From the NCBI GenBank assembly GCA_036001065.1, contig DASYUQ010000090.1:1-43301 (forward strand): a DNA stretch of 43,301 nt. Direction: 5' to 3'. This document shows positions 17,793 to 22,787 of the stretch, piece by piece (within the stretch, counting starts at the first letter, position 1; each line of letters opens with the position of its first letter). Under the pieces are notes generated by a model. It had not been told where the DNA came from and did not search any database. It was given only the letters and a program-made list of their open reading frames with translations. Made by a program: the position numbers and the translations under genes. This stretch comes from Candidatus Methylomirabilota bacterium. Lineage in GTDB: Bacteria; Methylomirabilota; Methylomirabilia; Rokubacteriales; CSP1-6.

Positions 17793-18034
17793 AGCATCTT
17801 CCGCAAGGTGGCGATCCCTTCGGCCAGACCCCGGCCGTTGGCGTTGGCTCTCAGTCGGGGCATCAAGCGACCAACCCGACCATTACCATCCAGGAACGGA
17901 TGGATGGCCTCGAACTGGACATGCATCAGCGCGGCCTGCACGAGGATCGGCAGCGACCGATCGTGAAGGAACTTCTCCCACGCGTCGAGGCACTCCATGA
18001 GCGCCTCGGGCGGCGATAATAACACAGATGCCAT
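17789..18034 (-). pseudogene. Truncated Fic (AMPylase) gene remnant
   Basis: About 80 codons carry the Fic core motif IHPFLDGNGRVGRLM, a good match to HxFx(D/E)GNGRxxR, and the preceding helices SPPEALMECLDAWEKFL and ALMHVQFEA. The N-terminal about 150 residues that Fic proteins normally have, including the start of the catalytic helix bundle, are missing. After the motif the sequence runs quickly into a short unrelated tail ending A-T-L-R-K-M-L. The similarity stops at about 18034, only 60-110 bases from the toxin-antitoxin promoter, so the 5' part was probably lost when that module arrived. A live small protein cannot be excluded. Confidence 0.8.
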
Positions 18035-18094
18035 TGAAAGAGACCTTTCAGAGGTCGGTGGATTAGCAGGGCCTCTCCCGGCGCGCGGTGGCGC

Positions 18095-18124
18095 TTGTCC
18101 CAGTGGTATGACCATGGTTATACT
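18095..18124 (+). promoter_or_regulatory. Promoter of the toxin-antitoxin pair
   Basis: TTGTCC (18095-18100) and TATACT (18119-18124) are separated by 18 bases, 22 bases before the antitoxin ATG. The -10 matches the consensus at five of six positions. Confidence 0.65.
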
Positions 18125-18136
18125 CTTGCCATACCA
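18104..18136. promoter_or_regulatory. Candidate autoregulatory operator of the toxin-antitoxin pair
   Basis: GTATGACCATGGTTATAC (18106-18123) is an 18-base near-palindrome with one mismatched pair and a perfect ACCATGGT centre, overlapping the -10. Outer arms TGGTATG (18104-18110) and CATACCA (18130-18136) form a second inverted repeat. Ribbon-helix-helix antitoxins bind such short symmetric sites to repress their own operon; the assignment to this antitoxin is inference. Confidence 0.65.
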
Positions 18137-18146
18137 GGGAGGCGGC

Positions 18147-18404
18147 ATGCCGAAGGCAGCGACGAAGGTCGCCGTCAGCATCCCGGACGATCTCTATCGC
18201 ATCCTCGAGCGGGTGCGCCGGGCGAGGGGCAAGACCCGGAGCGCCGCGATCCAGGAGGCCCTCCGGCATTGGCTCGACCACGAGGCCCAGCGGGCGCTGG
18301 TCCGCGAGTACGAGGCGGGGTACCGGCGCAAGCCCGAGGGGCGCCGGGAGGTCAAGGCCGCGGAAGCGGCCGCCATCCGTCTTCTGGCCGCCGAAGATTG
18401 GTAA
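18147..18404 (+). CDS. Ribbon-helix-helix (CopG-type) antitoxin
   Basis: An 85-residue protein with an N-terminal RHH fold: strand KVAVSIPDDLYRILERV, then RGKTRSAAIQEALRHWLDHE. The C-terminal part is charged and Ala-rich (VREYEAGYRRKPEGRREVKAAEAAA), as in antitoxins that wrap around MazF-type toxins. ATG 18147 is preceded by AGGGAGG. Its TAA shares one base with the toxin ATG (TAATG), the usual coupling of such pairs. It should bind the symmetric site in its own promoter. Confidence 0.9.
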   Translation: MPKAATKVAVSIPDDLYRILERVRRARGKTRSAAIQEALRHWLDHEAQRALVREYEAGYRRKPEGRREVKAAEAAAIRLLAAEDW

Positions 18405-18718
18405 TGCGCCGCGGCGAGGTGTGGTGGGCGGAGCTGCCGGCCCCCGCCGGCCGGCGGCCGGTGGTGCTGCTGTCACGCAACGAGGCCTATGCCGTGCGCG
18501 AGTTGGTGACCGTCGCCTCAGTCACGACGCGGATTCGGCAGATTCCCACCGAGGTTGGTCTCGGGCCCGCGGAAGGGTTGCCGAAGGCATGCGTGGCCAA
18601 CCTCGACACGATCACAACCATCCCCAAGCGGGCGCTGACGCAGCTCATCGGCCCGCTCCCGCCGGAAAAGCTGGCGGCCGTGGAGCGCGCGCTCCGATTC
18701 GCTCTCGGCCTCTCCTAA
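18404..18718 (+). CDS. MazF/PemK-type endoribonuclease toxin
   Basis: A 104-residue toxin of the PemK/MazF family. It has the opening RRGEVWWAELPAPAGRRPVVLLSRN, the strand LVTVASVTTRIRQIPTEV, the V-A-N-L-D-T-I-T-T-I segment and the closing helix LPPEKLAAVERALRFALGL. Family members cleave mRNA at short sequences and are neutralised by the cognate antitoxin. The frame starts by overlapping the antitoxin stop. The sequence is intact, including the Arg of the R-P-V-V-L-L segment that forms the catalytic pocket in relatives. Confidence 0.92.
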   Translation: MRRGEVWWAELPAPAGRRPVVLLSRNEAYAVRELVTVASVTTRIRQIPTEVGLGPAEGLPKACVANLDTITTIPKRALTQLIGPLPPEKLAAVERALRFALGLS

Positions 18719-18740
18719 CCGGCCGGGGCGGGAGTCGGCC

Positions 18741-21700
18741 CTACTCGCTGGTCGCGGTGAACGGGCAGATCTGATTGTACGCGCAGAAGCGGCACGCGTT
18801 GTAGGAGGGCGTCGCCTCGAACCGGCGCGCGCGAATGCCGGCGGCCGCCGCCTTCACCGCCGCCACCGCTTCCTTTATATCCTCCTCGGTCGGGGTGTGG
18901 CGGCCGATCAGGTTCGAGTCCACGAAACGAAGCTCCAGGCGCTGGGGCGGCGTGCCCGTCATCTCCCGCCAGGCCAGCGCGTAGATCTTGAGCTGGAGAC
19001 TCGCCACGGTGCGGCGGTCGGCGTCCTTCTGCCGGACGACGTCGCCCGTCTTGTAGTCGACGATCACCGCGCCGAGCAGGTCCTCGTCCACGCGGTCGAA
19101 GCGGCCCCGGACGCGGTCAGGCCCCAGGTTGAAGCCGAACTCCTTCTCGACGTGCGTCGGCTTGGCGCCCGCCGCCTCCTCCTCGTGCCAGAAGCGCGTC
19201 AGCGCCTTGCGCCCGGCCGCCCGCCGGGCCTCCTCGTGCTCGCGGGTGAGGAAGCCTTCCGCCGGCTCGTTCAACCCAGGGCGCTCGCGCAGGATGTCCT
19301 CCCCGGCCCACGCGCGTTCGTACGCGCCCAGGAGATCGTCGAGCGGAGTGTAGTTGCCGACCGCCCGCCGGCGTAGGTAGTACTCGACCGTCTTGTGGAC
19401 GATCGATCCGTAGGCGACGGTGTGGTGCCGCCGGATCGGGACCCTCAGGACGTGGACGTATTGATACTTGAGCGGGCACGTCTGATAGTCGTCGATCTGC
19501 TTGTGACTGATCGTCAGCTCTTCATCCGGCGCCAGCGGCACCATCGTGCCTTCGCCGGTCTGCGCCGGCGGCGCGAACCGTTCGATCTCCTCGACTGCGC
19601 GGGCCTTGAAGGGGTGCGCGGCATCGCGCGGCAGGTCGAGCGCCTCCAGCACGAACTGGCTCACCTTGCGCTGACGGGTGCCGCCGTAGTCGCGCGCGCT
19701 CGTGTGGTAGAGCTCGCGCTTGGCGCGCGTCATGCCCACGTAGAAGAGGCGGCGCTCCTCTTGGAGATGGAAGTCGCCGGAGGGCAGCGTGTCCTTGATC
19801 ATCGCCACGGGCAGCTCCAGCGCGTCCCGCCGCCGCCGCGACGGGAACTTGTCCTGCACGAGATTCACCAGGAAGACCACCGGGAACTCGAGGCCCTTGG
19901 CCTTGTGGACGGTGAGCACGTGCACGGCCGGGGTTTCGACGTCCGCTTCAGCCACGGCCGGATCCTCTCCAGCGTCGATCAGCGCGTCGAGGTGCTTGAC
20001 GAACTCCCGCACATTGTCGTAGCGGAGCGCCTTGGACGCCGACCGGATCCGATCGAAGAACTTCGCGATGTTGTTCGTTTCCGCGATGTCCCGCGCCGTC
20101 TCCGCCCGGTACATCCGTCCCAGCCAGCCACAGTCCTTCAGGAACTGGTACAGCACCTCGCCCGTCGGGACCTCCCGTCCCAGCTCCATGTAGCGGGCGA
20201 GATGCGCCACGAGATGACCGACGGCCGCGTGCCCCTCCTCGCTGACCTCGTCGCGCAACTCGGCGATCTTGTCGACCCGTCGGAGGACGTCGAACAGCGA
20301 GACGTGCTTGCGATCGGCGTAGGTCGAGCAGCGGGTGAGATCGACGATCGGCACCTGGTAGAGCTCGGACGATGCCAGATAGTGCAGGCTCACCGACTCG
20401 TCCACGTGCACAACCGCGCGCAGAAAGGCGATGAGCAGCCGGATCTCCGGACGACCATAGAGTCCGGCGTTCCCGGAGAAGGTCCACGGAATGCCGCGGA
20501 GGTTCAGGGAGCGGAGGAACTGGTCGGCGTCCCCGTTCGAGCGCACCAGGACCGCCACATCGTCGTAGCGCCATACTCCCTCTTCGACCCGCTCGCGGAT
20601 CATCTGGGCGACGGCGTCCGCCTCCTGGCTCGCCGTCTCGTAGTGCAGGTGGGCGGGCGACCGGCCGGCTCCCGCCCGCGCCGTGAGCTGCTTGCTGATT
20701 CCGCTGCGGACCTCCAGTCGGTCGGGGTTGTTGTACTGGATGAGCCGGTAGGCGGCGTCCAGGATCTCCTGCGTCGACCGGTAATTGTCGGTCAGGACGA
20801 TCTGGGCGGCTTCAGGATAGGCCTCGAGGAAGCCCAGCACATTGGAGATGGCGGCGCCCCGGAACTTGTAGATCGAGTTGTGGACTACAATCCCCTCGGC
20901 CACGAAGTTGTGCGTGCGGTCTATCTCGAGATCATAGACGTCCTGCATTTGGACTCTCTCGGAAACGTCGACCACCCGCTCGTACACGACTCGATTGTCC
21001 CTGACAACGGGCACGTAGTGTCCGGGCAGCACGTTCCCGGCTGGCATGACGAGCGCCCCCTTGGACTTCACCGGGCCCCGTCCAACATCAAAGCAAACCT
21101 CGAGAATGCCGCCGGTCAGTTCGCAGAGGAGCTCGGCCCGAATACCGACCTCACGCAGCGAGGTGCTTGTGGCCCGATGGCGCCATCCACGCTTCGCCTT
21201 GCGAAGTGAGAGCCCGGCAGCGCGCAGGCGTTCGATTACACCTGGCGCCGAAGTCTCCACGCTGACTCCGTGGAGAATCTGGGGTGCCTTGAGGAGCCTC
21301 GCCCCCTTCTTAGGTGCGTACCGGCGCCAGCACATCGTAAGAACAACCTTGACGCGCGATTGCCCGCCGCGATGCACTCCGCCTAGGGCGAAGTGGTGTG
21401 CGTTCAGATCGATACCCAGCTCGACGGCCAGCATTTCGGCGTTCTTTCTCGTTTCGAGCTGGCGGAAGAGTCCCTCGAGGTAGTTGCCAACAATCATCAC
21501 GTCACTGCGAGGCATGAACGGCAACGTGGGAATCGAGTATTTCAGCGACCACAGCACCTCATGGTAGCGAGCCTCAGCCTCCGAGCGAAACGCGCGAAGG
21601 CCAACGATCCGATCCGCTCCAGCTTCCAAGCGGAGCCGGACCGCCAAATCATTCGTAACGCCGATACGCCAACCGAGATCCCGCCGCTCCATTAGGTAAA

Positions 21701-22787
21701 CGTAGGTAAGCTCGTCTGACGGCCCTCGCCTCGGCACATAACAGAACATCTTGTGGTTATCGGTCACAGTGAGCCGGCGCCCCGACTCGGTCTCGAATGT
21801 CAAAAGGCGCGTGTGCTTTCTCTGCCTGAACACGCGTGTGACAACGCTTGTTCCTAGGAAGCCTTTCCCCGCTGCTGTGAGGACTGCATCACCGGGCTTA
21901 AATGATTCGATCGGGCGAGGACCGGTCGCGGTCTCCACCAGTGTGCCGGACGGCAGGCATTGATCGTCATCAGCGACGACCGCCACGTTGGCGTGACGCG
22001 CCGCCAGCAGCTTCACGAGCTCGAACTGCGCGTAGTTCGTGTCCTGGAACTCGTCCACCAGGATGTACTTGAAGCGGCGCTGGTAGGCGCCCAGCACGTA
22101 GGGGCGCGCGCGGAGGAGGCGGAGCACGAGCACGATCTGGTCGCCGAAGTCGACGACGCCCTCGCGGGCCGTCAGCTCCCGGTACTTGGCGTAGGTCGCC
22201 GCCAGCTCGGCTTGCTGGGCGGCGCGCTGGCGCGCCTCCTCGTAGTCGGGGGCCAGCGTGGCCTCGCGGGCCAGCCGCTCGGCATAGGCCCCGTACTCTT
22301 CGGGCGCGACATCCTCGTCCTTGCAGCGGCTGATGAGCGTGATGAGCGCCTGCAGGTGCCTCGTCGGGTCGCCGAGTGGACGGTAGTGGTCGAGGGGCAG
22401 CTCGAAGAGCCGGTCCCGAAGGAAGATCACCTGCTCGGCGCGATTGAAAACCCGGAAATCGGGGGTGAGCCCGATCTCCAGCGCGTGCTCGCGCAGGATG
22501 CGGTCGCCGAAGGCGTGGAAGGTCGCGATCTCGACGTCGGCGTAGCCGTAGGGCACCAGGGTGTCGACGCGCTCCTCCATCTCCGCCGCGGCCTTGTCGG
22601 TGAAGGTCAGGGCGAGGATCTCTTCGGGCCGGGCCCGGCGCTGGGCGATCAGGTGGGCGATGCGCCGGGTGATGACGGTGGTCTTCCCGGTGCCGGCGCC
22701 GGCGACGATCAGGAGCGGGCCGGCGTCGTGGCTGACGGCCTCGCGCTGCGCCTCGTTGAGCCCCTCGAGGATGCGGTCGGCCGCCAT
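18741..22787 (-). CDS. UvrD-family helicase with C-terminal PD-(D/E)XK nuclease, intein-containing
   Basis: A 1348-residue precursor (987 after removal of the intein). The helicase has Walker A GAGTGKT (30-36), ALTFTDKAAAEMEERV, motif II LVDEFQDTNYAQF, motif III ADDDQ/S (interrupted by the intein after residue 276), NYRST and VHKAKGLEFPVVF. The C-terminus has a RecB-like nuclease: GRFDRVDEDLLGAVIVDYKTGD, then QLKIYALAW. An iron-sulfur-type cysteine set is present, with one Cys in YQTCPLKYQY and three in CRFCAYNQIC. This layout matches helicase-nuclease proteins of recombination repair such as AddB/AdnB relatives. ATG 22787 is the only sensible start. Confidence 0.94.
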   Translation of the reverse strand: MAADRILEGLNEAQREAVSHDAGPLLIVAGAGTGKTTVITRRIAHLIAQRRARPEEILALTFTDKAAAEMEERVDTLVPYGYADVEIATFHAFGDRILREHALEIGLTPDFRVFNRAEQVIFLRDRLFELPLDHYRPLGDPTRHLQALITLISRCKDEDVAPEEYGAYAERLAREATLAPDYEEARQRAAQQAELAATYAKYRELTAREGVVDFGDQIVLVLRLLRARPYVLGAYQRRFKYILVDEFQDTNYAQFELVKLLAARHANVAVVADDDQCLPSGTLVETATGPRPIESFKPGDAVLTAAGKGFLGTSVVTRVFRQRKHTRLLTFETESGRRLTVTDNHKMFCYVPRRGPSDELTYVYLMERRDLGWRIGVTNDLAVRLRLEAGADRIVGLRAFRSEAEARYHEVLWSLKYSIPTLPFMPRSDVMIVGNYLEGLFRQLETRKNAEMLAVELGIDLNAHHFALGGVHRGGQSRVKVVLTMCWRRYAPKKGARLLKAPQILHGVSVETSAPGVIERLRAAGLSLRKAKRGWRHRATSTSLREVGIRAELLCELTGGILEVCFDVGRGPVKSKGALVMPAGNVLPGHYVPVVRDNRVVYERVVDVSERVQMQDVYDLEIDRTHNFVAEGIVVHNSIYKFRGAAISNVLGFLEAYPEAAQIVLTDNYRSTQEILDAAYRLIQYNNPDRLEVRSGISKQLTARAGAGRSPAHLHYETASQEADAVAQMIRERVEEGVWRYDDVAVLVRSNGDADQFLRSLNLRGIPWTFSGNAGLYGRPEIRLLIAFLRAVVHVDESVSLHYLASSELYQVPIVDLTRCSTYADRKHVSLFDVLRRVDKIAELRDEVSEEGHAAVGHLVAHLARYMELGREVPTGEVLYQFLKDCGWLGRMYRAETARDIAETNNIAKFFDRIRSASKALRYDNVREFVKHLDALIDAGEDPAVAEADVETPAVHVLTVHKAKGLEFPVVFLVNLVQDKFPSRRRRDALELPVAMIKDTLPSGDFHLQEERRLFYVGMTRAKRELYHTSARDYGGTRQRKVSQFVLEALDLPRDAAHPFKARAVEEIERFAPPAQTGEGTMVPLAPDEELTISHKQIDDYQTCPLKYQYVHVLRVPIRRHHTVAYGSIVHKTVEYYLRRRAVGNYTPLDDLLGAYERAWAGEDILRERPGLNEPAEGFLTREHEEARRAAGRKALTRFWHEEEAAGAKPTHVEKEFGFNLGPDRVRGRFDRVDEDLLGAVIVDYKTGDVVRQKDADRRTVASLQLKIYALAWREMTGTPPQRLELRFVDSNLIGRHTPTEEDIKEAVAAVKAAAAGIRARRFEATPSYNACRFCAYNQICPFTATSE
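20877..21959 (-). mobile_element. Intein (361 residues) with GIY-YIG-like segment in the UvrD-type helicase
   Basis: It covers precursor residues 277-637. It begins CLPSGTLVET (block A), has TVTDNHKMF (block B), VYDLEIDRTHNF (block F) and ends in His-Asn before extein Ser638. A GIY-YIG-like segment at intein residues 85-145 reads YVYLMERRDLGWRIGVTND, then RLR and a Glu in SEAEARYHEV. Intein residues about 160-320 resemble no domain I recognise. The extein joins Q276 to S638 in helicase motif III, a known intein insertion site. Base composition is visibly more AT-rich than the flanking helicase, in keeping with recent transfer. Splicing residues Cys1, the block B His, and terminal His-Asn-Ser are all present. 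Confidence 0.93.

Follow-up and report, generated by a model that had tools for sequence, protein, structure and literature searches.

A putative homing intein with a divergent GIY-YIG-type nuclease core in a UvrD-type helicase of Candidatus Methylomirabilota

We describe an intein of 361 residues that interrupts motif III of a UvrD-type helicase gene in a Candidatus Methylomirabilota bacterium (assembly GCA_036001065.1, contig DASYUQ010000090.1). The window, that is, the whole stretch of DNA analysed, comprises positions 1 to 43,301 of this contig, and its source genome is labeled G000 below. The evidence makes it highly probable that the element belongs to a family of mobile homing inteins that carry, between the two halves of the splicing (Hint) domain, a divergent GIY-YIG endonuclease together with a basic DNA-recognition module. 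This reading draws on the sequence and predicted structure of the central core, the residues invariant across the family, and marks of exchange around the insertion site in coliphages and Rokubacteria.

A complete intein in motif III of the helicase

The features of the interrupted gene are as follows; residue numbers refer to the intein unless stated otherwise.

18741..22787, minus strand: UvrD-type helicase gene with a C-terminal PD-(D/E)XK domain, a single open reading frame of 1348 codons
18762..19511, minus strand: PD-(D/E)XK (RecB-family) domain of the host protein, precursor residues 1093-1342 (Pfam)
20877..21959, minus strand: intein of 361 residues at the Gln/Ser junction of motif III (curated intein models; full-length relatives)
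21726..21959, minus strand: N-terminal Hint half, residues 1-78, with Cys1 and block B TDNH at 66-69 (intein_Nterm; structure model)
21510..21710, minus strand: GIY-YIG-type nuclease core, residues 84-150 (hhalign, structure model, Foldseek, invariance)
21363..21503, minus strand: linker module, residues 153-199, with two predicted helices (158-168 and 170-181) in the model
21066..21362, minus strand: basic accessory module, residues 200-298, modeled as strand-strand-helix-strand-helix, net charge +13
20877..21062, minus strand: C-terminal Hint half, residues 300-361, with D343, H350, H360 and N361 (intein_Cterm; structure model)
20874..20876, minus strand: Ser+1 codon of the C-extein, the splicing nucleophile (sequence)

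The host protein matches the Pfam families UvrD-helicase (1.5e-70), UvrD_C (1.6e-48) and PDDEXK_1 (2.8e-36). The intein occupies precursor residues 277-637, from Cys1 (codon 21957-21959) to Asn361 (codon 20877-20879), with Ser as the next residue of the C-extein, and these limits coincide exactly with those of the original prediction, which had been made from the sequence alone. The insertion splits motif III as VVADDDQ|SIYKFRGA, and removing it computationally restores the motif and reduces the precursor from 1348 to 987 residues, the spliced length that had been expected. Of the splicing elements, Cys1, block B (T66-H69), block F, the terminal His360-Asn361 and Ser+1 are present; Cys1 and His69 are invariant in 37 of 37 family rows, and T66 is kept in 35 of 37. 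Curated models agree with this assignment: Pfam Intein_splicing (PF14890) matches with E=3.4e-15 and 56.6 bits, above a cut-off of 35.8, and the NCBIfam models intein_Nterm and intein_Cterm match at 3.1e-6 and 3e-8. An AlphaFold2 model built from nine aligned rows (mean predicted local distance difference test, pLDDT, 87.6; predicted template modeling score, pTM, 0.86) contains both Hint halves, and its Foldseek search returned only intein and Hint matches, the best in PDB being LAGLIDADG-type inteins of the PI-SceI and TliVMA type. Full-length relatives with 40-67% identity in other genomes, all within open reading frames, place the element far beyond chance. Judged by its sequence, the insert is a complete class-1-type intein, and because the splicing residues are complete and invariant it is predicted to splice out and rejoin motif III.

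Relatives follow host gene and insertion site

Of the 95 genomes of the phylum that were searched, 12 have an intein at the same site of the same helicase, the named relatives being Candidatus Rokubacteria/Rokuibacteriota, and further such inteins occur in Patescibacteria. Other Rokubacteria and Patescibacteria carry a second group, in motif III of a PcrA-like helicase (VVGDPDQ|S). The third group interrupts UvrD-like helicases of phages, namely Stephanstirmvirinae coliphages and Klebsiella phages (junction Q|C). Adenine methyltransferases harbor the fourth (junction P|C); they come from prophages of Streptococcus suis, from environmental viruses and from a plasmid of Providencia. In the family tree, groups track the host gene and insertion site, not the phylum, and support is 100/100 where the Rokubacteria inteins of one helicase meet those of Patescibacteria; the branch order among phage groups was not used, since long branches between them drew a warning from the tree program. 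Scans of IMG/VR with the query family and the PcrA-type set gave short splicing-end matches or none, and the methyltransferase set gave 16 matches. The expectation that similar helicase inteins might already be in databases proved right: dozens exist, some coliphage members being annotated as "intein," and the nuclease type is named in none. The wide distribution, the empty alleles and the co-conversion marks described below lay beyond the reach of that first sequence reading.

Variants of the architecture were also seen. The intein of a 485-kilobase (kb) jumbo-phage helicase (L044, 3501-4694) has 398 residues, is inserted after motif II and not motif III, and bears an additional stretch ahead of its C-terminal Hint half. 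One Patescibacteria frame of 2287 codons (L059, G457:C7) shows four or more distinct matches to intein ends, with several inteins in one gene.

Marks of co-conversion at the insertion site

Coliphage alleles provide the sharpest marks of exchange. We compared intein-bearing phages (PaulScherrer, JohannJBalmer, phi92 and one more) with the intein-free phages EmilieFrey, JLBYU50 and alia. Their flanks differ at 12-27 of 1572 bases (about 99% identity), and within an island from −27 to +51 nucleotides (nt) around the insertion 25-27 of 78 bases differ, a density reached in 0 of 2000 shuffles. Inside this island the intein-free phages differ from each other by 0-2 bases and PaulScherrer from phi92 by none; outside it, PaulScherrer is nearer to the intein-free EmilieFrey (12 differences) than to phi92 (24). 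The outgroup phage anhysbys agrees with the intein-free phages at 15 sites and with the intein-bearing ones at 6-7, and its +1 residue is Ser; the island of the intein-bearing phages brings Cys+1. Judging from these differences, the intein and the 78-nt island have moved together between backgrounds, and the island is the sequence pattern expected if a break at the insertion site had been repaired; cutting would then have caused the exchange. Four records (MG065639, MG065645, MG065656 and MG065689) named as Campylobacter phages are of coliphage size, and their intein shares 99% identity with the one in coliphage PaulScherrer; the host label of these records may be wrong.

In Rokubacteria, presence of the intein is patchy and linked to the +1 residue. 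We found 30 uninterrupted alleles in the taxonomic family to which the window's genome belongs, with Ala at +1 in 27 and Ser in three; Ser occupies this position in all ten intein alleles for which the codon was read. A hand calculation, uncorrected for relatedness, gives C(13,10)/C(40,10) = 3e-7 for this association, which is partly expected because splicing needs a nucleophile at that position. On the extein tree, intein presence requires at least five changes even if the count is restricted to well-supported branches. The window's genome belongs to a clade supported at 100/99, and each of the ten other members has an uninterrupted allele with Ala+1, so intein and Ser changed together in its lineage.

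In G087, a genome of the same genus, the allele is uninterrupted (AIYR), and identity to the window is about 93% at 4.9-17.8 kb and in the helicase upstream of −45 nt. Between these regions lies one further feature:

17860..22004, no strand: tract divergent from G087, 76-84% identical where alignable versus about 93% on both sides

The tract runs from −45 nt through the C-terminal half of the helicase to about 17.86 kb. Its left end is within 45 nt of the insertion, so this boundary coincides with the insertion site; its right end falls beyond the gene, in a variable island. A permutation test on G000 and G087 placed the densest differences far downstream and not at the insertion site, so we drew on the pair solely to locate the left boundary relative to the 93% background. 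Alone, it gives neither the direction nor the cause of the exchange. The pair G067/G068 was left out as too diverged to inform. Within the variable island, the window encodes a ribbon-helix-helix and MazF/PemK-like toxin pair (18149-18718, plus strand) directly downstream of the helicase, and the same place in G087 holds Fic and restriction-type helicase genes (L129, 2988-6704).

Such islands could also be the product of ordinary homologous recombination, or of selection favoring flanks compatible with splicing, an explanation that is compatible with a GIY-YIG fold. It would account for the G000/G087 tract, which passes the end of the gene into the toxin-antitoxin island and so exceeds a minimal homing tract, and for a Ser+1 that splicing requires anyway. 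We nevertheless consider it unlikely, since the coliphage island spans only 78 nt around the insertion and is common to different backgrounds, and the left end of the G000 tract lies no more than 45 nt from the insertion. Taken together, signs of the homing type are present: patchy occupation of one site, transfer between lineages, and co-conversion of flanks.

A probable divergent GIY-YIG core

The original prediction had recognized a GIY-YIG pattern in the segment YVYLM...WRIGVTND, which corresponds to residues 86-104. As curated single-sequence models were silent on this region, the assignment was examined by three independent tests, namely profile-profile comparison, structure and residue invariance, which support the GIY-YIG reading of that segment.

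For the profile comparison, a family profile of residues 80-152 (37 rows) was aligned by hhalign to GIY-YIG domains that PF01541 had identified in related genomes. Probabilities reached 90.6-91.9%, with P between 7e-7 and 1.3e-6 over 64 columns. Matches were weaker against T5orf172/MUG113 domains (80%, P 1.4e-5) and very low against UvrC-type domains alone (7%, P 0.005), and control comparisons with reversed profiles and other intein parts gave at most 0.7%. Against LAGLIDADG profiles, intein parts scored at or below 2.6%.

The structure prediction, which had been proposed as a check, returned the GIY-YIG element order in addition to the Hint halves. Residues 85-141 form strand-strand-helix-strand-helix (strands 85-92 and 96-102, helix 105-111, strand 117-124, helix 127-141), the order of a GIY-YIG core. 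Because the search with the whole intein had retrieved only inteins and Hint domains, the middle part was folded separately. With residues 76-303 as query against predicted viral structures, the top three Foldseek matches were a phage helicase, an adenine methyltransferase and an unnamed protein of 924 residues; among the next matches, many of the named ones were GIY-YIG or homing endonucleases, with best probabilities of 0.92-0.99.

Nine residues are invariant in the 37 distinct rows: Y88, M90, R98, G100, R108, E112, E134, Y141 and P144. Their order of Tyr, Gly, Arg and Glu is that expected of the GIY-YIG superfamily, with the GIY tyrosine kept as Y88, a catalytic-type Arg in the first helix (R108) and a Glu in a later helix (E134). 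The nuclease is the most conserved segment of the intein both within and between groups. Among Rokubacteria copies, the median ratio of nonsynonymous to synonymous substitution rates (dN/dS) is 0.09 in the nuclease; the splicing halves have 0.19 and 0.16, and the modules 0.24-0.27. We read these values only as a comparison because synonymous sites are near saturation.

Several observations weigh against the proposed identity and mobility. No curated nuclease model matched any of 23 diverse members (Pfam, E up to 10; NCBIfam): the hidden Markov model search suggested at the outset recovered Hint and intein models but no GIY-YIG or T5orf172/MUG113 family in Pfam. The middle part modeled alone is less certain (pLDDT 73.8, pTM 0.53), and its PDB matches in Foldseek are weak, the GIY-YIG enzyme Slx1 (0.57) being among them. 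The YIG tyrosine is replaced by the invariant Arg98, and the conserved Asn of some GIY-YIG members is not evident in the core. As to mobility, the sharpest evidence for homing comes from phage relatives that are about 26% identical to this intein, and the window's own copy may be resident. Other searches were silent as well: the T5orf172/MUG113 models found nothing in G000, HNH models were absent from the Pfam matches of the 23 members, LAGLIDADG (PF14528) had no match in the window's contig, a PHROGs scan of the 23 members gave nothing convincing besides intein and Hint models, and phmmer and hmmsearch against PDB found Hint domains and chance matches only. On the combined evidence of profiles, model and invariance, the central core nevertheless is a divergent GIY-YIG domain under strong purifying selection, and as such it would be expected to cut DNA.

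A GIY-YIG ancestry could be real and the cutting activity lost, with the intein now inherited vertically and confined to splicing, perhaps regulating maturation of the helicase. The loss of the YIG tyrosine fits this account, as do the age of the Rokubacteria inteins and their divergence from each other. It sits poorly with the invariance of Y88, R98, G100, R108, E112 and E134 in the most constrained segment of the intein, and with the patchy presence and the fresh exchange marks in phages. Moreover, the substitution at Arg98 is comparable to the Lys of T5orf172-type members, and a T5orf172 nuclease with a departing motif is active and Glu-dependent (PMC8263062; also PMC10448857). We regard a non-cutting relic as improbable. 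An unrelated accessory fold, such as a decayed LAGLIDADG part or a purely structural insert, would explain the missing curated family match, the microcompartment shell proteins that head the PDB Foldseek results and the low-probability LAGLIDADG matches there, yet it is very hard to reconcile with the GIY-YIG profile match and its clean controls, the lack of LAGLIDADG signal and the viral Foldseek matches.

Two modules after the nuclease and the proposed homing cycle

The original prediction had also noted a further region of about 150 residues, at roughly 160-320, that resembled nothing recognizable. It indeed matches no known family, but its bounds are approximately 153-298 and it consists of two parts. 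The linker module (153-199) is kept in all relatives, including the short methyltransferase inteins. The basic module (200-298), whose net charge is +5 to +16 in other helicase inteins, is missing from the methyltransferase inteins of 285 residues, and between insertion-site groups it is 17% identical, compared with 43% for the nuclease. Its charge, position and high divergence between these groups suggest that it is probably a DNA-recognition domain. The short form, of 284-292 residues and without the basic module, was observed in adenine methyltransferases of phages and plasmids (L041, L043 and L079-L093), and could serve as a minimal form of the nuclease. A LAGLIDADG remnant was considered for residues 153-298 on the basis of element order and weak I-SmaMI and I-OnuI matches, and was rejected for want of profile-comparison support.

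In the homing cycle that we propose for this GIY-YIG intein, the helicase precursor would be translated with the intein inside, and Cys1, the TDNH block, His360-Asn361 and Ser+1 would excise it to yield the rejoined helicase. The freed intein would act as a site-specific nuclease, its basic module reading the codons of an uninterrupted motif III and its GIY-YIG core cutting there. Repair from the intein-bearing allele would then copy the intein with a short flank, including a +1 codon fit for splicing. The sequence pattern of such copying is seen in coliphages and Rokubacteria, and we infer an enzymatic cause.

Relation to known systems

LAGLIDADG inteins, such as those of the PI-SceI and TliVMA type and the G000 inteins in NrdJ and MoxR, share the frame of Cys1...HN/Ser, a nuclease nested between Hint halves and an essential-gene motif as the site; unlike them, the window's intein has no LAGLIDADG helix or profile match, and its core is of the GIY-YIG type. 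The GIY-YIG homing endonucleases I-TevI and the Seg family resemble it in core fold order, catalytic Arg and Glu, and a separate DNA-reading region after the core. They are sited in group I introns or free-standing phage genes and not in inteins, and differ from the intein in its Arg for the YIG Tyr and its recognition module of no known family. T5orf172/MUG113 proteins, for example Odn of phage ICP1 (PMC8263062), have a non-canonical second motif, "KIG.T," where the intein has "RIG.T," and conserve the same Arg and Glu, but do not lie inside a splicing element. The UvrD/Rep inteins of phi92, PaulScherrer and JohannJBalmer (BASEL collection) belong to the same family by sequence, site and architecture, although their annotation gives no nuclease type and their +1 residue is Cys, not Ser.

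A 2006 survey found GIY-YIG nucleases in group I introns and not in inteins (PMC1564403), and the accessible portions of later reviews list GIY-YIG among homing families generally and give no intein example (PMC7765530, PMC3943268). For phage ribonucleotide reductase R2 inteins, only LAGLIDADG nucleases have been described, with GIY-YIG occurring in the introns (PMC8772380). We found no report of an intein with a GIY-YIG nuclease, a superfamily not known in inteins, in the searchable literature, which excludes most subscription papers, supplements and preprints, so that an earlier report is possible. It is therefore probable, though less so than the homing reading itself, that this is the first recognized lineage of GIY-YIG-homing inteins, spanning two bacterial phyla and phages and supplying its own +1 nucleophile by co-converting a few dozen flanking bases. 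If cleavage is confirmed, it would extend the small set of nuclease types by which inteins home. The suggestion that inteins carry a splicing-friendly +1 residue in the conversion tract was presented as speculation in 2025 (PMC11855218), and the coliphage and Rokubacteria alleles offer natural evidence for it. Homing is directly testable, because one public collection offers E. coli K-12 phages with the intein (PaulScherrer, JohannJBalmer) and without it (EmilieFrey).

Three further inteins were observed in the window's genome: two in the ribonucleotide reductase NrdJ, one LAGLIDADG and one short (G000:C33), and one of LAGLIDADG type in a MoxR-like ATPase (G000:C4). The same genome has 15 stand-alone GIY-YIG (PF01541) matches (for example on C209, C202 and C116), compared with one to four in relatives. 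Several of the 15 lie at contig ends, where the same scores recur, which suggests a multiplied element.

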